From: an uncultured Bacteriovoracaceae bacterium
Lineage (GTDB): Bacteria; Bdellovibrionota; Bacteriovoracia; Bacteriovoracales; Bacteriovoracaceae
Assembly: GCA_937931205.1 (NCBI GenBank)
Contig: CALHBF010000001.1
Coordinates: 186,001-250,000 of the forward strand
Length of the DNA: 64,000 nucleotides
Direction of reading: 5' to 3'
Positions 2,976 through 40,256 of this stretch are shown here, one piece after another; position 1 is the first letter of the stretch, and every line of letters starts with the position of its first letter. Under the pieces are notes generated by a model that was not told the DNA's origin, searched no databases, and saw only the letters and a list, made by a program, of their open reading frames with translations. A program made the translations under genes and the position numbers.

Positions 2976-3451
2976 TACTCTTCTTTCTTCGTAAATTCGG
3001 CTTCAAAAACATTCTTATCATCAAGGGTCGATTTTTCAGAAGTCGATCTTCCTCCAAAGCCTCCACCTCGATAAACATTAAACTGAAATCCCTGCCTCAT
3101 GCTTCGAGGTCCAGTGAATTTCCATTTCTCTAAAATCTCACCGAAAATCGCAACAAACCAACTCATGGTCACAAGTCCTGGATTCGTTTTCCAATAAGCC
3201 GCTGTCGCAAGAGTTGCAACAAGAACACGTGGAAGAAAGAAGAAGCCCAACCACCAAAGAAATCCTCCAGTAACAACAGAAGAAAAAAGCAAAGTTAGTC
3301 TTGGGAAGAAAGTAATAAAAATTAAAAAGAATGGGCCTCTTTTTTGCCAATAATCAATTTCGCCAAATTGAGCAGCAAAAAGATCAGACATAATTGTCGT
3401 GGCAAGAGTCAGCACCATAAAGATTGCAAATAATCGTAAAAAAAGTGTCAT
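2975..3451 (-). CDS. Small integral membrane protein
   Basis: 158 aa with hydrophobic segments; ATGA overlap with the upstream GH15 gene. Confidence 0.75.
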   Translation of the reverse strand: MTLFLRLFAIFMVLTLATTIMSDLFAAQFGEIDYWQKRGPFFLIFITFFPRLTLLFSSVVTGGFLWWLGFFFLPRVLVATLATAAYWKTNPGLVTMSWFVAIFGEILEKWKFTGPRSMRQGFQFNVYRGGGFGGRSTSEKSTLDDKNVFEAEFTKKEE

Positions 3452-5226
3452 TCAAAAACCATCAAGTCTTGCTTGCGCGCAAGTCGGCAAGCGGTGTTAA
3501 TAAGACCAACATGAGAATAGTTCTGTGGGAAGTTCCCCCACTGGCCGCCATCCTCCGAGCTTAAGTCTTCTGATAGTAACCCTAAATGATTCGAATGTTG
3601 AATGACATTTTTAAGCGAATCGTAAGCTTCTTTCAAGAAACCCAGCACAATGAGACACTCTATGTACCAGTAAGTACAAATAAGAAATGTTGCATGGGTT
3701 TCACCAAAATCATCTAAGGCCCGATAGCGATAAATCATTCCTTCTGGAGTAAGGAGTTCTTTTTGTAAACGCTGGAAATGTTTATGAGTACGCTCGTCTT
3801 CTGGATTGAGGTAATTCATGATGATTAACAGAAAGGCCGAGGCATCAAAATACTGGAGATCCTGATCACTCATGTAACATTCATTTTCTGGACTATAACA
3901 TTTCTCGATATTCATCTCAGAAATCTTGGCCACTTCCGAGGCTTCCTGACATAGTTTTCCATCATTATAGTGAGTAGCTATTTTCATGGCAGCCTTAGCT
4001 CCGGCCCAATGAAAGATATAAGTCTCTAGATGCTTCGCTGTCTTTCCTCTAAACTCCCAAATCCCAGCATCAGGAAGATCCATACAATTTTTTATTTCAG
4101 AAATTAATTCACTGATAATATCCAGAGATCTAATCTTTTCACGATTAATAATTCGCTCATCCAGATATAGAGGAAGCAAGGAGAGAATCACTTGCCCGTA
4201 AGAATCATATTGCTTTTGAAAGTAAGCCGCATTTCCAATTCTAACAGGATCGGAATTCATATAACCTTTAAGTGGAATAATTCTTTCAGTAATGTCTGTT
4301 GACCCGTTTAAGCGATATACCGGCTGGAGCTTGGCGACATCTTGGGTCACATTATGAATAAAATGAAGATATCTTTCGGCCTCATCAAAATGCCCTAGGG
4401 AATTCATCGCCGCCAGTGAAAAATAAGAATCCCTGATCCAGCAATATCGATAATCCCAATTTCTTCCTGAATAAGGATACTCGGGCAGTGAAGTCGTTCC
4501 ACTGGCAAGAATCGCGCCTGTATCTTCAAATTGATGCATCTTAATGGTGATGGCCGAACGAATAATTTCTTTTTGAAAGATGTTGGGAACATAACTCGCC
4601 TTAATCCACTCCCTCCAATAAAGAATTGTTCGCTGTAAAAACTCTTCAAAAGTATCTTTGAGAGGAGCTTCGAAAGGTTCTCCCCCCGATAAAATAAGAT
4701 AGAGATCCTCAGTCAGAAAAAATTCTCGATTCTCTAACAGATATGTTTTCGAAGCATTAGTGGTCAGTCGCATCGGCATGTGAAGGCCAGTGAAACAGAT
4801 ATGGTTTGACCCCGTAAAGTTTCCAGGAATTGTCTCTCCATAATGCCCTCTTGGCTCACAAATAATTTTGATTCGAGGTTTACCACTCAAATATTTTATT
4901 TTCCGGAAAAACTGCATCGGTTTAAAATAACGATCAGTTCTTTTAAATCGAGGAGCAAAGTCGATGACTTCAAAAGAGCCATCTTCACAAAAAAAACGCG
5001 TGGTCAGAACTGCAGTATTATCCACATAACGTTGCTCAGTGTGAAAGCGACTCAAAGGAAGAACTTGAAAATTCCCTCCCTTAACATCATCTAAAAGATT
5101 TCCAAAGACAAAAGAAGAATCCATGGATGGCCAACACATCCAGCTCACAGAACTCTGTGTATCAATGTAGGCCATGTAATGACAGTTTCCAATAACACCA
5201 AGGTTGTAACGATGTGCCTTTTTCAT
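3448..5226 (-). CDS. Glycoside hydrolase family 15 protein (glucoamylase / GH15-type trehalase-like)
   Basis: 592 aa; GH15 motifs NWDYRYCWIRDSYFSL and GLLSEDLSSEDGGQWGNFPQNYSHVGLINTA. Confidence 0.9.
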   Translation of the reverse strand: MKKAHRYNLGVIGNCHYMAYIDTQSSVSWMCWPSMDSSFVFGNLLDDVKGGNFQVLPLSRFHTEQRYVDNTAVLTTRFFCEDGSFEVIDFAPRFKRTDRYFKPMQFFRKIKYLSGKPRIKIICEPRGHYGETIPGNFTGSNHICFTGLHMPMRLTTNASKTYLLENREFFLTEDLYLILSGGEPFEAPLKDTFEEFLQRTILYWREWIKASYVPNIFQKEIIRSAITIKMHQFEDTGAILASGTTSLPEYPYSGRNWDYRYCWIRDSYFSLAAMNSLGHFDEAERYLHFIHNVTQDVAKLQPVYRLNGSTDITERIIPLKGYMNSDPVRIGNAAYFQKQYDSYGQVILSLLPLYLDERIINREKIRSLDIISELISEIKNCMDLPDAGIWEFRGKTAKHLETYIFHWAGAKAAMKIATHYNDGKLCQEASEVAKISEMNIEKCYSPENECYMSDQDLQYFDASAFLLIIMNYLNPEDERTHKHFQRLQKELLTPEGMIYRYRALDDFGETHATFLICTYWYIECLIVLGFLKEAYDSLKNVIQHSNHLGLLSEDLSSEDGGQWGNFPQNYSHVGLINTACRLARKQDLMVFE

Positions 5227-30207: not shown

Positions 30208-32856
30208 TTAGAAATGCTTTTCAGAAATTCTTTCTTTCACAACATCTTCATAAGAAGAAACCTTTTGCTCGATATCTGATTTCTTCATATTAAATCTTTT
30301 TGCTACCGAATCATTTAATAGCTCTTCAACTGTTTTCTTCTCCACTTCTTTCCATCCCATTGAAAGACAGGCCTTACGTGGAAGTCTCACAGTCACTCTT
30401 GTTTTCTCCCATTTCCAAGGGATAACACTCTTACAGTGAAGCGCTCTCTCATCGGCCTTTGCCTCTAACAGAGCTTCCACCCTTGAGAAGATCTGGTTAT
30501 CAACTTCCTTTTGAGAAGCTTCAACAAATTTCTTATACCCTTCATCTCCCAGAGCATCCTGACAAGGGCCACTCATAATCAATGAACTGAAAGCTTCACG
30601 CTTTAGATGGTAAAGAGGTAGAAATGTCACTTGTCCTAAAGCAAGATTTCGACAAGAACTCATCACTGAAGATTTATCAGTTAAGCTACTCACCCACGAA
30701 AAGTCAGAAACAAGAAACTCACGGATTTTATCTGCATCTTGAGAGAAGATAACCGGGAGCTCTTGTGCTTCTTCGGCCATTGATGTCTCATGATAACCTC
30801 TCATCAGAGTTACCATTTTCGGTTTTAAAAACTCGAGGATAATTTGTTCTTCGATTGGATGAACGACCTTCTGTCCGTTGAAATCTAGTTCACGAACAAA
30901 TTCAGTCATCGCAGTCGGCATCTGAGCGTTCAAACAATTAAAGAATGAACTCACAAGGTAGCCTTTCGCCGGGGTAAAGAGGGTGCCTGCGGGAGCAGCA
31001 TCATCATTATGATTCATGTTCAAACACATCTGCCATGTGTCTTCTGACTTCAAAGTAATCAATTCTTCATTAGCATCAAGAAGATTCTTATAGCTGTTAT
31101 AAAGATCACTCGATACTCGAGAATAAGCATGAGCATTTGAATACAAGACGCCTAGCTCTTGAGCATGAGATTCCGGCAGTCCCATGTTAATAGCTTCTGC
31201 TGAAGCAACACGAGTAACTTTTCCATCGTAACAAGATTTTAGGTCATCAAAGACACTGCCTTTAAAACATTGAAAGAATGCTTCGTTAGCTAGTCTGCGA
31301 GAACTAAGCAAATTATTGAAAGATTTCATCTTTTCAACATAAGCAGGATCTTTAGACATTTCTGTCACATAAGTTTTAAAGCTTTCACGTAGAGAATTTT
31401 TAACAAGAACATTCCATTGATTTTGATCTTGTGCCGAATCAAGTGTATTACAACCATCTGGTTCATAAATTTTAACCATCGAAGTGACTTCGCTGGCCAT
31501 CAATTGAGCCTCATGACTTAAACAACGTAATACCCATGGACTAACAGAGCTGACACTAAAGTCTGCTGCAGAAAAATAATTTGACTGATATGCCTTCTCG
31601 CTTGCTGTACAGTCCATCACTTTCGTTAAAGCTTTGCCAGCGAAAGAGGATTCGTATTTTTTAAGAAGTCTTTCTCTGTTACCTATTTTGTCATAGCTAT
31701 CGCCATGAAAATAATTGCCACTAATCCAATTATATTGAACATCGTCAATTTTAGTTTTGGTTCTGTCACCTTCTTGTCTAAAGTAGGCCAGAGTGTCTGC
31801 AAAGTTCTCTACTGGAGAAGTTGCTGCATAATCACGAATTGTTCTCGCTTCAGGTTTTAACTTCCACTCAGATACAAACTTACCTTCGGCATTCGTGTAC
31901 TCATGCTTGTAAAAGCCAACGAGATCTAGATAATCTTTGTCATATGAACGGTAGTACTGATTACTTCTTTTCTCACGGGCCTGAAGGTTGTCCAGCATGT
32001 GAGTCATTTCGTGAATCACACCTACATACAAGAACCCTTCATCTTTATTCATCATCGAAGTTGTTAAACAACCATCTTGAAGTCTAATATGCCCAGCAGT
32101 ACTGGCCAGACCACAAGCACCTACTTTGTAACCTTCAAAGTTCTCAACTCCGCGTGGAATACGTTGAACCTCATTTAAGTTTGTTAGGTTGGTATAAGGT
32201 TCCTTCAGGAGATGCGTGATTCTCCATAAAGCATAAAGTTCTGTCTCATTATAGAGATAAGATGAAATGGGAAAACTTTTATCAGCATAGACTTCAGCGG
32301 CCGGAGCTGGAGGTCTGCTGACGACAACCTGGTATACACCAGGATTAGGAGATCGCTGATCAGGAATCATATTATCAGCTGAGAGATAATGTCCAAATTT
32401 GAGAAACCAAATATAGTGGACATATCCAGCTACATTATTATTTCCCTTATTATAAATTCGGTTAAAAATACAAGGAACATCACCGCAACCTGAATAATCA
32501 ATACTCTCAGGGTTGGCCAGATCACCAATTTTATCACCATACTTTTTCAGGAAATTGGCCTGTGGTATCGGTAGAGTTGATAAATCCAGATGCTTCCAAG
32601 TCCCCGATACAGCTCTTCCAGAAACCTTGGATTCGTATTGAGCAATTTCTTTTTTCAGAGTATCAACAGTAAAGATGTTACTTAAACACATCCCTTTTTG
32701 ATTATTTGAAGCAATAGACCTTACAAGAGTATCCTCACTCGATTGCAGATGCATATCTTGCCAAGCAGTCGCAATCGACTTAGGTGCTTTGGGTTTTGAG
32801 CAAGCAACAAGTGCCAATGCACCCATCGCATATATGATGTAATTACTTCGTTTCAT
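30208..32856 (-). CDS. Large lipoprotein with HExxH zinc-metallopeptidase motif, paralog A
   Basis: 882 aa; lipobox ALVACS; GVIHEMTHMLDN; extensive similarity to the 33412-36021 product, e.g. IPWKWEKTRVTVRLPRKACLSMGWK. Confidence 0.85.
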   Translation of the reverse strand: MKRSNYIIYAMGALALVACSKPKAPKSIATAWQDMHLQSSEDTLVRSIASNNQKGMCLSNIFTVDTLKKEIAQYESKVSGRAVSGTWKHLDLSTLPIPQANFLKKYGDKIGDLANPESIDYSGCGDVPCIFNRIYNKGNNNVAGYVHYIWFLKFGHYLSADNMIPDQRSPNPGVYQVVVSRPPAPAAEVYADKSFPISSYLYNETELYALWRITHLLKEPYTNLTNLNEVQRIPRGVENFEGYKVGACGLASTAGHIRLQDGCLTTSMMNKDEGFLYVGVIHEMTHMLDNLQAREKRSNQYYRSYDKDYLDLVGFYKHEYTNAEGKFVSEWKLKPEARTIRDYAATSPVENFADTLAYFRQEGDRTKTKIDDVQYNWISGNYFHGDSYDKIGNRERLLKKYESSFAGKALTKVMDCTASEKAYQSNYFSAADFSVSSVSPWVLRCLSHEAQLMASEVTSMVKIYEPDGCNTLDSAQDQNQWNVLVKNSLRESFKTYVTEMSKDPAYVEKMKSFNNLLSSRRLANEAFFQCFKGSVFDDLKSCYDGKVTRVASAEAINMGLPESHAQELGVLYSNAHAYSRVSSDLYNSYKNLLDANEELITLKSEDTWQMCLNMNHNDDAAPAGTLFTPAKGYLVSSFFNCLNAQMPTAMTEFVRELDFNGQKVVHPIEEQIILEFLKPKMVTLMRGYHETSMAEEAQELPVIFSQDADKIREFLVSDFSWVSSLTDKSSVMSSCRNLALGQVTFLPLYHLKREAFSSLIMSGPCQDALGDEGYKKFVEASQKEVDNQIFSRVEALLEAKADERALHCKSVIPWKWEKTRVTVRLPRKACLSMGWKEVEKKTVEELLNDSVAKRFNMKKSDIEQKVSSYEDVVKERISEKHF

Positions 32857-33411: not shown

Positions 33412-36006
33412 TTAGAAATGTTTTTCTTCAACTGCAGCTCTTATTCGTGGAGCTCTTGAACTAATCTCAGCTTTGAGTTCTTCAGTGCTTAATTTCAATT
33501 TCTTTAAGTCAGAACTTCTCATAAGCTCGTTAACAACTGTCTCTTCTACATCTTTCCAACCCATAGTTAAACAGGCCTGGCGTGGAATTCTAACAGTTGC
33601 TCTCGTTCTTTCCCACTTCCAAGGAATGATAGTCCTACAATGTAGTGCTCTCTCCTCTGCGGCAGTATTGAATATTTGATCAATTCTTGAATAAACTTCT
33701 GCTTCTATTTTTGACTTACTATTTTCAACAAATTTCGTGAAGGTAGGATCTTGTAAAATGTCACGACAGACTTCACTTGATAGTAGATTACCAAAAACTT
33801 CTCGCTTCACGTGGAATCGAGGAAGATAGTCGATTTTCTTTAATCCATAGTCACGACAGCTTAGTAGTAGTGTCGTTTGATTATTCAGAGTTGTGACCCA
33901 AGAAAAATCACTTAAAAGATCCTGACGAATTCCTCCATAGTACTGTTTGACAATGCCGGATAGCTCGACCTTCTCCTCAGCTGTGGCCTTTAGATGAAGA
34001 GTCGTAATCAAATCACTAATACGAGGAACGAGGAATTCAACAAGAATTTCCTCTTCTTTAGAATGAGTCACTTTCTGCCCTTCCAGTTCAAGGGCCCTTG
34101 TCACTTGGGTAACAAGAGATGGGAAACCATCATTCACACAATTGACAATTGAGCTGACAGCATATCCTCTGACTGGATTAAAATATTTTCCTCTTGGACG
34201 GTAAGTATCATCTGCCGGAACATCAACACATGCCTGCCAAAAATATTGAGTTTCATTTTCAATCATTTCTGCATTTTGATCTAAAATCCCTTTGAATGAT
34301 GAGAACAACTCATTCACAACAACCGAGTACGGATGGGCCTCTCCATAAAGACGAACTAACTCGACAGCTTGCTCATCTGGAAGCCTTAGCCCAACTCCTA
34401 TTTCGGAAATAATCTGATTGATTTTTTCTTGATAGCAACTACTCATATCTTTAAGGCTACTACCTTGATAACAAGCATAAATAGCTTCATTGGCATACTG
34501 GCGGCTAGCAACGATATTTTCAAGATTACCAATTTTTTCTAGATACTTAGGATCTTTTGTCATTTCACTGACATAAACAGAGAATTGTCCTTTGAGATAT
34601 TCTTTTAAATCTTCATCCCAGAATCTTTTTTCTGATCTTGAAAGTAATCCGCAACCATCTGGTTCATAAACCTTCACACGTGCAGTGATCATCTCTGCGA
34701 TTTCTTTTGCTTCATGTCCGAGGCAGCGAAGCATCCAAGGAGCGATTTGAGCATCCTGAAAATCTCTCATCGTGAAATAATCAGAATGATAAGATTTAGA
34801 ATTCTTTGAACAATCTACAACTTTACCTAAAATACCTCGGCTCGCTACAGAACCATGCTGCTTGATCAAACGACTTCTGTTTCCAGTCGTATCATAAGTT
34901 TCGTTGGCAAAATAATTTCTTGATACCCAAGAAAAGTGTTCATTCGAAATTTTACTTTTTGTCTCATCTCCACTTTGTCTAAAATAGGCTAAGGTATCAG
35001 CAAAGCTCTCTGCAGGACTTGCCGTCGCGTAGTCTCTGATTGCTTTAGCCCCTGGCCTTACTTTCCACTGATAAACGAGCTTCCCGTTAGCATCTGTATA
35101 CTCTTCACGATAAAATCCCGCGACATTTGTATAGTCAGGCTCATATGAGCGATAAGTTTTACCAACATAACGTGTTCTTGCTTCATGATAATCAAGAATA
35201 TGGGACATTTCATGAACAACACCTATATAGAGGAATCCATCATCGTTATTGAGATTTTCAACCTTCAAACATCCATCAGAAACAAATACATTTCCGATTG
35301 AAGAAGCAATTCCACAAGTTAAGGGACTCGCATTCTCAAAATTAGCTCCACGAGGAAGCCTTTGTAGTTCGCGAAAGAGAGTCATTGTTGTAAATGGTTC
35401 TTTTAAAAGATGAGTTACTCTCCAAAGCCCATAGAGTTCAGCATCATTAAAAAGATACGCACTCAAAGGCCAGCTGCGACCACCATAAACACCTACTCTA
35501 TCAGGGCTGTAGTCATAGCTTGGAATAGAGTTATCAGCTGCAAGATAGCTACCAAATTTGAGATACCACAAATAGTGAACATATCCGCCGATGTAATCAT
35601 CACCCTTCTTATAAATGCGATTGAAAATACATGGAAGATCTCCACAACCAGAATAGTCGATACTATCTTTGTATTGCAGGTCTCCTATTTTATCTCCGAA
35701 CTGGCGCAAGAATTGAGCTTGAGGAAACGGTAACATACTCAATTCGAGATGTTTCCAAAATCCGGCAGATGCACTCTTGTTGCTGAATGTTTTTTCGTAG
35801 TTAGCAATCTCGCTCTTGAGTGCCGGAACATTAAAATTACTCTGCAAGCACATGGCCGTACCATTAACTGAGGCGACACTACGAACGAGTTCATCAGATT
35901 GCGATGACGATTTCTGCTGCCACACCAATGCTAAGCTTTTGGGTGATTTTTTTTCACCTGTACAAGACAGCAAAATAAGAAAAGAAAGTAGAAAAATAGG
36001 TCTCAT
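33412..36006 (-). CDS. Large lipoprotein with HExxH zinc-metallopeptidase motif, paralog B
   Basis: About 864 aa from MRPIFLLSFLILLSC (lipobox); GVVHEMSHILDY; IPWKWERTRATVRIPRQACLTMGWK; start 36006 preferred (GGAG upstream) over 36021. Confidence 0.85.
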   Translation of the reverse strand: MRPIFLLSFLILLSCTGEKKSPKSLALVWQQKSSSQSDELVRSVASVNGTAMCLQSNFNVPALKSEIANYEKTFSNKSASAGFWKHLELSMLPFPQAQFLRQFGDKIGDLQYKDSIDYSGCGDLPCIFNRIYKKGDDYIGGYVHYLWYLKFGSYLAADNSIPSYDYSPDRVGVYGGRSWPLSAYLFNDAELYGLWRVTHLLKEPFTTMTLFRELQRLPRGANFENASPLTCGIASSIGNVFVSDGCLKVENLNNDDGFLYIGVVHEMSHILDYHEARTRYVGKTYRSYEPDYTNVAGFYREEYTDANGKLVYQWKVRPGAKAIRDYATASPAESFADTLAYFRQSGDETKSKISNEHFSWVSRNYFANETYDTTGNRSRLIKQHGSVASRGILGKVVDCSKNSKSYHSDYFTMRDFQDAQIAPWMLRCLGHEAKEIAEMITARVKVYEPDGCGLLSRSEKRFWDEDLKEYLKGQFSVYVSEMTKDPKYLEKIGNLENIVASRQYANEAIYACYQGSSLKDMSSCYQEKINQIISEIGVGLRLPDEQAVELVRLYGEAHPYSVVVNELFSSFKGILDQNAEMIENETQYFWQACVDVPADDTYRPRGKYFNPVRGYAVSSIVNCVNDGFPSLVTQVTRALELEGQKVTHSKEEEILVEFLVPRISDLITTLHLKATAEEKVELSGIVKQYYGGIRQDLLSDFSWVTTLNNQTTLLLSCRDYGLKKIDYLPRFHVKREVFGNLLSSEVCRDILQDPTFTKFVENSKSKIEAEVYSRIDQIFNTAAEERALHCRTIIPWKWERTRATVRIPRQACLTMGWKDVEETVVNELMRSSDLKKLKLSTEELKAEISSRAPRIRAAVEEKHF

Positions 36007-36027
36007 GGGTTTTTTCTCCATGAGACC

Positions 36028-36066: not shown

Positions 36067-36729
36067 TTAAATTGGCCTAATCACACCACAAGATATGGGA
36101 ACACTGATATGAGGTTCAAGATTTTCAATACTTGCTACTGTACTAGGAAGATGTCCTGATGCCGAAGTCCCTTGAACTAGGATCACTCGGTTTTCCAGAC
36201 TTAAACTGTCTCCTTTGAGCAAGTAATGATCAGGACCATAAGGCATTTGCAGATCTTTTAAAATATCTGACCAGTTGGCCTTCTTATTATAGGTAAAACT
36301 CGGCCCCTTAGGATATTGTCCCTCGCCCTCTTTCCTGGAGGTAATGTCATTATCCAAAGGAATTAAAACACTACCTAAAGCAACGTGGGCTTCTTTAATA
36401 TCAATGATGCCATCTTTATTCCTGTCATCAGCTGGTGTTGGGCATTTCGAAGCAGAGAAAATGTTCTGCATATGCATCACTCTCTGATCATCATCCAAGT
36501 AAGTTGTTATGTTTAATACATCCGCCTGGAGAGACAATTCCGCTCTACCGAAAGGAATAAAACCATTAACCGTCGAGTTAATCGGTCTAAGAAACGCCAC
36601 ATATTTCCCCTCCTTCATAACAATTTCTTCTTTCTCAATACTGTTAATCACCTGCCCTCCAGATCCTCCGCTGCTTTTTCCACACGAAGAAACTAAAAGC
36701 AATAACATCATAGGGACTAATGTTTTCAT
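36067..36729 (-). CDS. Lipoprotein with an EF-hand calcium-binding loop
   Basis: Lipobox LLLLVSSC; loop DRNKDGIIDIKE; ATGA overlap with the upstream gene. Confidence 0.75.
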   Translation of the reverse strand: MKTLVPMMLLLLVSSCGKSSGGSGGQVINSIEKEEIVMKEGKYVAFLRPINSTVNGFIPFGRAELSLQADVLNITTYLDDDQRVMHMQNIFSASKCPTPADDRNKDGIIDIKEAHVALGSVLIPLDNDITSRKEGEGQYPKGPSFTYNKKANWSDILKDLQMPYGPDHYLLKGDSLSLENRVILVQGTSASGHLPSTVASIENLEPHISVPISCGVIRPI

Positions 36730-37544
36730 AGCGAATCAGCTCCTGTTTTAAACCCCAGGCCATAAGACATTCTTACCTCGCCTGCATTAAATTCTGTTTT
36801 ATGAACATTCTTTTTTTCTTTATCTGAAAGATAGGCCGGGATGCGATAGTACATGCTATCAATCATCAGGTAGCAATCTTCAGTTTGAGGGTTCACATCG
36901 TATTCAGAAAATTTATCAGTCGGTTTACATTCACGTTTCGAAAATACCATCAGATCGGTCCACTCTCTGATAGGTACTGGACGATCAAGGAATTGATGAT
37001 CAACGACATATTTTTCAATTTTATCTCCTACTTTCACAGAGAGAAGAGGTGCTACGTGAAACCACCACTTAAAACGATTTCGATTTATGTATGAAGCGGT
37101 AAAAAAGGCATAAACCATCTCTGTCTGATAGCCATATTTTTTCCAGCCTTCAAATGCCCAAATAAAAGCACGATCACTGCATTCTGATTTTCTCGTATAA
37201 TCAGTCTTTAAGTTTTTCCAAAAATCTTGAAGCTGATCTTGAGTTAAGACTGACGGCTGATAATTCTCAGTCGAAGGCTCAAGACTTAATGGAGTAGGAA
37301 CAGCATCCTCCCCTTCTGAGAGAACTTTATAAGAAGTTAATTCAAGCTTTTTATTAAGTTGCCCCTTTATGGCGTGGCCCTTATTTAAAACTCCTGCATC
37401 TTTAGTGAAAGCAACACGCCCATTCTCAAATTTGATGAGATACTCACCTGTTTCTTTTACTTCTTCTATCGAGTGGATTTTACCTTGAAGGACATCTGCA
37501 AATGATGGCAGAGAGACGAGAAATGCTAATAGAACAAACTTCAT
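36726..37544 (-). CDS. Exported protein-glutaminase-like protein
   Basis: Signal peptide; Cys-His-Asp pattern SECSDRAFIWAFEGWKKYG / WWFHVAPLL / KYVVDHQFLDRPVPIREW. Confidence 0.7.
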   Translation of the reverse strand: MKFVLLAFLVSLPSFADVLQGKIHSIEEVKETGEYLIKFENGRVAFTKDAGVLNKGHAIKGQLNKKLELTSYKVLSEGEDAVPTPLSLEPSTENYQPSVLTQDQLQDFWKNLKTDYTRKSECSDRAFIWAFEGWKKYGYQTEMVYAFFTASYINRNRFKWWFHVAPLLSVKVGDKIEKYVVDHQFLDRPVPIREWTDLMVFSKRECKPTDKFSEYDVNPQTEDCYLMIDSMYYRIPAYLSDKEKKNVHKTEFNAGEVRMSYGLGFKTGADSL

Positions 37545-38872: not shown

Positions 38873-39466
38873 ATGAAGCCCTTTTTATTCCTGATCCTTT
38901 TGCTAAACTTATCCATCGCTTCTGCCCAAATCAAAGGGCCTGATAAAATTGATGGTTGGCAACTTCATGCCGGATCTCATACCCAAAATTACAATGCCGT
39001 CCAAACCAATGGCCAAGGCGAAATCAGAAAGTTCGAATTCACTCCAGTTATCGGTGGTGGATTAAACATTCCCCTTTCTGATAACTGGAAATTCCTACCG
39101 GAAATTTCTTGGGTTCTTCCTAAATTTAATGAAGATTCAAAAATCATTAAGAACATTTTCTTTTTTAGAGCAGACTTTGCTTACACTCTTACAGAGTGGA
39201 TGTGGCTAAGGCTCGGAACAAGTGTTTCTGTCTTAAATCAGCATGGACGAGGTGGGAAGGCCCAACTCAATAATGGTAATGATACCACTGAGTTTTATTA
39301 TCCAGATGAAAACCACTCAAGCGTAAACAATACTCTCGATCTTGGAGTTGAATTTCTTTACGACAATTGGTCTCTTCGTTTACAAACCTACACATACCAA
39401 ATTTTTAAAGAAGAAAGCAGACAAGTTTCCTACTCACTCTTTCTTACTCGCTATTGGGGTCTTTAA
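38873..39466 (+). CDS. Outer-membrane beta-barrel-like protein
   Basis: Signal peptide MKPFLFLILLLNLSIASAQ; alternating amphipathic strands, C-terminal LTRYWGL; start 38873. Confidence 0.65.
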   Translation: MKPFLFLILLLNLSIASAQIKGPDKIDGWQLHAGSHTQNYNAVQTNGQGEIRKFEFTPVIGGGLNIPLSDNWKFLPEISWVLPKFNEDSKIIKNIFFFRADFAYTLTEWMWLRLGTSVSVLNQHGRGGKAQLNNGNDTTEFYYPDENHSSVNNTLDLGVEFLYDNWSLRLQTYTYQIFKEESRQVSYSLFLTRYWGL

Positions 39467-39467
39467 T

Positions 39468-40256
39468 ATGAAAGCAATCATTGCTCTTTTTATTTTAACT
39501 TTTGCCTCTCAAAGTTTTTCATTCACACTGAACAACAACTTTGGTGCTGCTTTTAAAAATGATAATGTAAAGGTAAGCGTTGCTGGAAATACCACTTGTA
39601 CTGGGATTACTCCAGAAGAACTAAAATCTCTTATTAAACCTTCTATTAGTGATTTTTGGAATTCCGTTTCAACCAGTGCTCTTAGACTAAAAGATGGCGG
39701 TTTCTCAGCTTCTATCGCCAATATTCAATCAGGTTTCCTTTGTCCTCCAACTGATTCGACTTGTATTGCTCAAGGAGCGACGATCCCTCCTGTTAAAGAC
39801 ATTATTATTGCCTGTAATAATCAGGCCGCAAACTTTTCCAACTCAAGCAACGTACTAGCAGTAACTGTTCCCAATAATTTTTCAAAAGATAAAATTGTCG
39901 GAGCGGTCATTCTCATTAATGACACCTCTAATGCATTTTATTCATTGAATAGAAATGAGCAGATTTCAGTTATTGCCCATGAGATCGGTCACGCCATTGG
40001 CCTTGGTCATTCAGAAAATCAAGCAGCACTCATGTACTACCGTACAGTCGATATGAGAGAGAAACTCGGTCAGGATGATGTGGATGGAGTGAGTTATCTT
40101 TATCCTGTGAAGATGGATGGATGCGGATTACTGGGAACAATTGAAGAAACCAAGACCCCGCCGTTTTTTACAACTTTGGGTGCCTTGGTTCTTATGATTT
40201 TATTAAGTGAACTTGGTCGCTTATTTAAGCGCGCGAAGGCTCGTGCCTCTCTTTAA
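39468..40256 (+). CDS. Matrixin-type (M10-like) zinc metalloprotease with C-terminal TM and basic tail
   Basis: Signal peptide MKAIIALFILTFASQSFS; VIAHEIGHAIGLGHSENQAALMYY (HExxHxxGxxH plus Met-turn-like); tail ALVLMILLSELGRLFKRAKARASL. Confidence 0.85.
   Translation: MKAIIALFILTFASQSFSFTLNNNFGAAFKNDNVKVSVAGNTTCTGITPEELKSLIKPSISDFWNSVSTSALRLKDGGFSASIANIQSGFLCPPTDSTCIAQGATIPPVKDIIIACNNQAANFSNSSNVLAVTVPNNFSKDKIVGAVILINDTSNAFYSLNRNEQISVIAHEIGHAIGLGHSENQAALMYYRTVDMREKLGQDDVDGVSYLYPVKMDGCGLLGTIEETKTPPFFTTLGALVLMILLSELGRLFKRAKARASL

Follow-up and report, generated by a model that had tools for sequence, protein, structure and literature searches.

A gene pair for a predicted exported protein-glutaminase and an EF-hand lipoprotein in the genus Bacteriovorax

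We analysed a 64,000-nucleotide stretch of DNA (the window) from a genome of the genus Bacteriovorax, phylum Bdellovibrionota (3.08 Mb in 30 contigs). Bacteriovorax species prey on Gram-negative bacteria, in agreement with an earlier reading of the sequence alone that had suspected a predator as the host. The locus of interest consists of two genes on the minus strand, the strand of all features of this pair given below. The first encodes an exported protein-glutaminase-like enzyme of 272 aa (36726..37544) and the second a lipoprotein of 220 aa (36067..36729). As the sequence-only reading had described, the two open reading frames are coupled: they overlap by 4 bp at 36726-36729 (tcat on the plus strand, ATGA in the coding sense). 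A Shine-Dalgarno-like AGGAG precedes both of them.

The neighbourhood of the pair contains several further genes. A class-V aminotransferase (PF00266; 37690..38802, minus strand) lies upstream, and a homologue of it adjoins the pair in three other orthologous loci. On the downstream side, two large M90-like proteins are encoded close together on the minus strand (30208-32856 and 33412-36021), both scoring below the Pfam cut-off. The nearer of them is an exported metallopeptidase-like lipoprotein with an HEMSH motif (HExxH at residues 270-274; 20.9 bits against PF06167, cut-off 26.2 bits). Several orthologous loci likewise encode homologues of the M90-like proteins in the vicinity of the pair. 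A metalloprotease resembling the matrixins (M10) is encoded on the plus strand at 39342-40256; it contains HEIGHAIGLGHS and ends in a tail of hydrophobic and basic character. In two related loci, small exported proteins with HEWLH and a weak resemblance to SprT are encoded close to protein-glutaminase genes (L041:9936-11268, minus strand, and L040:7433-8221, plus strand).

The enzyme starts with a hydrophobic N-terminus, read by us as a Sec signal peptide of residues 1-16 (37497..37544) with probable cleavage after ...PSFA. A hydrophobic 10-mer within the first 60 aa is present in 83 of 87 members of the enzyme family. Residues 17-95 (37260..37496) would occupy the place of a protein-glutaminase pro-region: the family profile alignment, built from 37 relatives, reaches partly into the pro-region of the structures 3a54 and 3a56, where the posterior is low and the homology weak. 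The catalytic domain begins at about residue 97 and takes up the remainder of the protein (36729..37256), as seen from the PF18626 match at residues 107-197 and from the alignment of paralogues. Within it lie the predicted nucleophile Cys122 (37179..37181), the predicted catalytic histidine His163 (37056..37058) and the predicted catalytic aspartate Asp182 (36999..37001). Their spacings of 41 and 19 residues are those that had been noted beforehand along with the surrounding motifs. Among 90 distinct homologues the three residues are conserved in 88, 88 and 89 sequences, respectively. The exceptions are both halves of one split gene (L038) and one degenerate paralogue that has lost the Cys and the His; the latter (L043:2701-3345, minus strand) adjoins an intact copy at 3717-4505 and may be a pseudoenzyme. 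Five columns of the mixed enzyme alignment are invariant (C122, W160, H163, D182 and W195), and a pattern RA...WxxHVAP...D...EW is common to the window enzyme and canonical PF18626 members.

The enzyme matched the Pfam family PF18626 (Gln_deamidase_2) with 48.3 bits and an E-value of 1.2e-12, well above the gathering cut-off of 25 bits. In a classification of papain-like proteins this family comprises the protein glutaminases (PMC10318531). The NCBIfam equivalog for the Chryseobacterium-type protein-glutaminase (NF040782) gave only 12.3 bits against a cut-off of 250 bits, which places the window enzyme in a distant subfamily. In a single-sequence phmmer search against the PDB the enzyme had no match, such that profiles were required. 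The profile of the 37 relatives matched 8z3i, 3a56, 3a54, 2ksv and 2zk9 with E-values of 3e-26 to 9e-24. Since this alignment includes canonical members, a profile built from only the ten paralogues of the own genome is the stricter test; it matched 2ksv alone (E 2.4e-4). In the profile alignments the triad of the enzyme is aligned with that of 2ksv and 3a54, Cys122 falling on the catalytic Cys.

Structure prediction with AF2 used the window proteins and the proteins of two related loci, so that the alignments held three sequences and the models were weak (for the enzyme pLDDT 46, pTM 0.45). Foldseek with this low-confidence model returned as its top four PDB matches 2ksv, 3a56 (two chains) and 3a54, i.e. 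protein-glutaminase and pro-protein-glutaminase, at probabilities of 0.99-1.00 and TM values of about 0.3-0.5. Compared to the Chryseobacterium proteolyticum protein-glutaminase (EC 3.5.1.44; 2zk9/2ksv, pro-form 3a54/3a56), the window enzyme shares the Cys-His-Asp triad with its spacing, the fold match and the export by a signal peptide followed by an N-terminal region ahead of the catalytic domain. It differs in its low identity, its shorter length of 272 aa, two extra conserved cysteines (C206 and C224), its occurrence in multiple copies and its gene pairing with a lipoprotein. The proposed likeness to the Chryseobacterium-type enzyme thus holds at the level of the family, the structures and the aligned triad, while it does not extend to the equivalog. 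The outcome by which the sequence-only reading would have fallen, a lack of HMM and structural matches to the protein-glutaminase fold, did not occur. As judged from its sequence, the 272 aa protein belongs to the protein-glutaminases of PF18626, has its triad intact and carries a Sec-type signal, and it probably strips ammonia from glutamines of other proteins.

Ten PF18626 matches were found in the own genome, and between 2 and 14 per genome in all 26 same-genus genomes that were searched (the own and 25 others). Across a set of 58 relatives at least one match was present in 38. At the level of the phylum, 180 of 291 Bdellovibrionota genomes carry the family (146 of the 222 good ones); copy numbers outside the genus are mostly 1-3, with a few genomes at 4-10. 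None of the 14 control genomes contained a match. In some Bdellovibrionota, seen in two related loci (L012, L013) and in other relatives, the domain resides inside much longer proteins (frames of 500-700 aa) of different architecture.

The partner had been read as an EF-hand lipoprotein, and comparison with 48 homologues bears this out. The lipobox Cys16 (VSSC|G; 36682..36684) is a Cys in all 48 sequences, with Gly at position +2 in 33 of them. The EF-hand loop DRNKDGIIDIKE comprises residues 102-113 (36391..36426), and every one of the 48 homologues carries D, N, D, D and E at its positions 1, 3, 5, 9 and 12, respectively. Overall, conserved residues are C16, Q88, C96, P97, D102, N104, D106, D110, E113, D126, C214 and G215; the six lipoproteins of the own genome have C16, the EF-hand residues, C96 and C214-G215 in common. 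The loop follows the canonical 12-residue form D-x-N-x-D-G-x-[IVL]-D-x-x-E of EF-hand calcium sites (PF00036). Unlike typical members of that family, the lipoprotein has a single loop within an otherwise beta-rich protein, and scores stay below the Pfam EF-hand cut-off: the window protein had no match, the best member reached E 0.0058 and one homologue 16.4 against 25.4 bits. The nearest PDB sequence matches were troponin C sites (E 0.05). The family matched no Pfam family, with EF-hand matches below threshold only. It was found in 22 of 22 same-genus genomes searched and was absent from 13 genomes elsewhere in the phylum in the same search, while 16 further relatives contained one strong match (G034). 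The family is thus nearly confined to the genus Bacteriovorax. It is previously undescribed and probably binds calcium.

The AF2 model of the lipoprotein (pTM 0.62) provided an indication of its fold. All 50 Foldseek matches listed were Cu/Zn superoxide dismutases (SOD) or SOD-fold relatives (probability 0.92-1.00, E 1.4e-3 to 5.5e-2, TM about 0.35-0.6). A global profile alignment to SodC scored 20.4, compared to 3.5 ± 2.7 (maximum 12.4) for 60 column shuffles. It places H86 to C96 on the HGFHIHExGDC segment and the C-terminal CGV on ACGVI. Accordingly aligned are the two invariant cysteines, Cys96 (36442..36444) and Cys214 (36088..36090), which are predicted to form the SOD-type disulfide; the latter belongs to a C-terminal (I/V)xCGV(I/L) motif whose Cys-Gly is invariant in the 48 homologues. 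Also the His-to-Cys spacing of 10 agrees with the dismutases. In a local profile comparison to SOD the score did not exceed that of reversed controls, such that support comes from the global alignment and the fold. Taken at this moderate strength, the model points to a Cu/Zn-SOD-like beta-barrel. We do not regard the lipoprotein as a superoxide dismutase itself: it does not match PF00080, and the positions of the Cu/Zn ligands are variable within the family (N/T/G/F; H/Y; Q/L/H/T). A further difference to the dismutases is the EF-hand loop in the region of the zinc loop.

In ten genus genomes, 40 of 91 enzyme genes have a lipoprotein gene at a distance of at most 200 bp, where about 0.5 would be expected by chance. 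All 40 of these lipoprotein genes are on the same strand as the enzyme gene and 38 are downstream of it. For 51 distinct pairs the spacing as called ranged from -71 to +23 bp (the choice of the upstream start being uncertain), with 31 at or below zero. Evolutionary distances of enzymes and lipoproteins correlate in a mirror-tree comparison with r 0.875 for 51 pairs and 0.815 for 35 non-redundant pairs, and 0 of 5000 permutations were as high. Such a correlation would be expected from co-inheritance alone and is no proof of contact. Copy numbers of both families are likewise correlated (r 0.86, 22 genomes). In the enzyme tree the window enzyme belongs to a well-supported clade of 21 rows, every one of which is paired; a second, deeply separate lineage nearer the canonical protein-glutaminases is also paired in two genomes (G003 and G011). 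The two genes are arranged as one transcription unit and are co-inherited across the genus. Since 51 of the 91 enzymes and 57 of the 97 lipoproteins in the ten genomes are unpaired, the partnership is not obligatory. Solo EF-hand lipoproteins (L147, L148, L149 and L155) were seen by eye among BON-domain-like, response-regulator, VIT1-like and flavin-reductase-like genes. These surroundings, in which solo copies often lie, suggest a stress island and are as compatible with a role in the envelope as with one in predation.

A transglutaminase of the elicitor family PF16683 adjoins the pair in 12 orthologous loci in varied orientation; the family was identified in L044 and L045. It is not beside the window copy. 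Transglutaminases act on protein-bound glutamine, such that this separate protein family has the type of substrate in common with the enzyme. Genomes of the genus carry 4-10 PF16683 genes. A general clustering of these genes with the pairs was only weakly seen (5 compared to 2.1 expected), while it holds at the orthologous locus. In one further locus (L152:1767-2966 and 3071-3916, minus strand) a solo lipoprotein gene immediately precedes a transglutaminase-elicitor gene of the same orientation, with no protein-glutaminase between them.

We favour, at a probability only slightly above one half (roughly 0.55), a reading in which the pair consists of an exported protein-glutaminase and a lipoprotein partner of its own, the zymogenic enzyme being held and regulated in a calcium-dependent manner at the surface or in the periplasm of the predator. 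The enzyme would be synthesized in a zymogen form, with its active site blocked by the N-terminal region. Known protein-glutaminases have pro-regions of 108-118 aa (PMC9396377), and pro-protein-glutaminases are secreted and subsequently activated by extracellular peptidases (PMC13139226). Based on the latter, the M90-like neighbours can be proposed as candidate zymogen activators. In the window system an extracellular peptidase may likewise free the enzyme from its inhibitory N-terminal region. The freed enzyme would then turn glutamine side chains of nearby proteins, from the prey or from the own envelope, into glutamate under release of ammonia. The lipoprotein is expected to reside in the outer membrane, given the Gly at +2. 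It could bind its cognate enzyme via the SOD-like beta-sandwich that lacks conserved metal ligands, and the EF-hand could render this binding calcium-dependent, by which the enzyme would be held and regulated at the predator surface or in the periplasm. More generally, the many enzyme copies in the genus that are encoded together with a membrane-anchored partner suggest a regulated protein-modifying toolkit.

One may ask whether such enzymes serve the predator's own envelope or stress response, including the limitation of transglutaminase cross-links, rather than the killing or digestion of prey. The transglutaminase genes adjoining the 12 orthologous loci, encoding enzymes that likewise use protein glutamine, and the solo lipoproteins in stress-like gene islands are consistent with this. 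However, transglutaminase genes at other loci show no clear proximity to the pairs, and the enzyme domain is present in 146 of the 222 good genomes from a predator-rich phylum and amplified in Bacteriovorax. We regard such a domestic role as possible but not probable.

Alternatively, the lipoprotein could be a cognate inhibitor that shields proteins of the predator's own periplasm and envelope, similar to the immunity proteins of toxin-immunity systems. Nearly all pairs have the enzyme gene followed by the partner gene with overlap or tight spacing, both are co-inherited one-to-one, and orphan partner genes are numerous, as is common for immunity genes. Such a role is nonetheless doubtful: more than half of the enzymes, with intact triad, have no adjacent partner, the enzyme may have an inhibitory pro-region of its own, and the partner sequences share an invariant core and are not very diverse. 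That the fold is common while the chemistry differs, the enzyme being a transglutaminase or a cysteine peptidase of the same superfamily, is quite improbable, since, even though papain-like and transglutaminase-like families also have a Cys-His-Asp triad and the enzyme shows low identity to protein-glutaminase and misses the NCBIfam equivalog, the best structural and profile matches were specifically protein-glutaminases, with no transglutaminases or peptidases, and the RA...WxxHVAP...D...EW pattern is shared with the canonical members.

The favoured reading of an enzyme held by its lipoprotein can be taken further. Each exported protein-glutaminase might be held or switched by its own outer-membrane lipoprotein, in which a SOD fold would have shed its metals and acquired a calcium switch; predators might use the amplified pairs together with transglutaminases on prey glutamines during invasion. 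We consider this extended scenario unlikely and put it forward as speculation.

In the literature searched, protein-glutaminases appear mainly as food enzymes. We found no work that links protein-glutaminase with Bdellovibrio or predatory bacteria, nor any that combines Bacteriovorax with transglutaminase, which is weak evidence as subscription papers were mostly outside the search. The sequence-only reading was largely right and its interpretation is supported, with the enzyme as a putative effector; new beyond it are the amplified, paired enzyme system and the new lipoprotein family. The presence of the enzymes in two thirds of the good genomes of the phylum, their amplification in Bacteriovorax and their tie to a lipoprotein turn them into a system with a testable biological role. 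A candidate for this role is the deamidation of glutamines in proteins, used either in predation or to control the envelope. In addition, the system would supply many diverse new protein-glutaminases.
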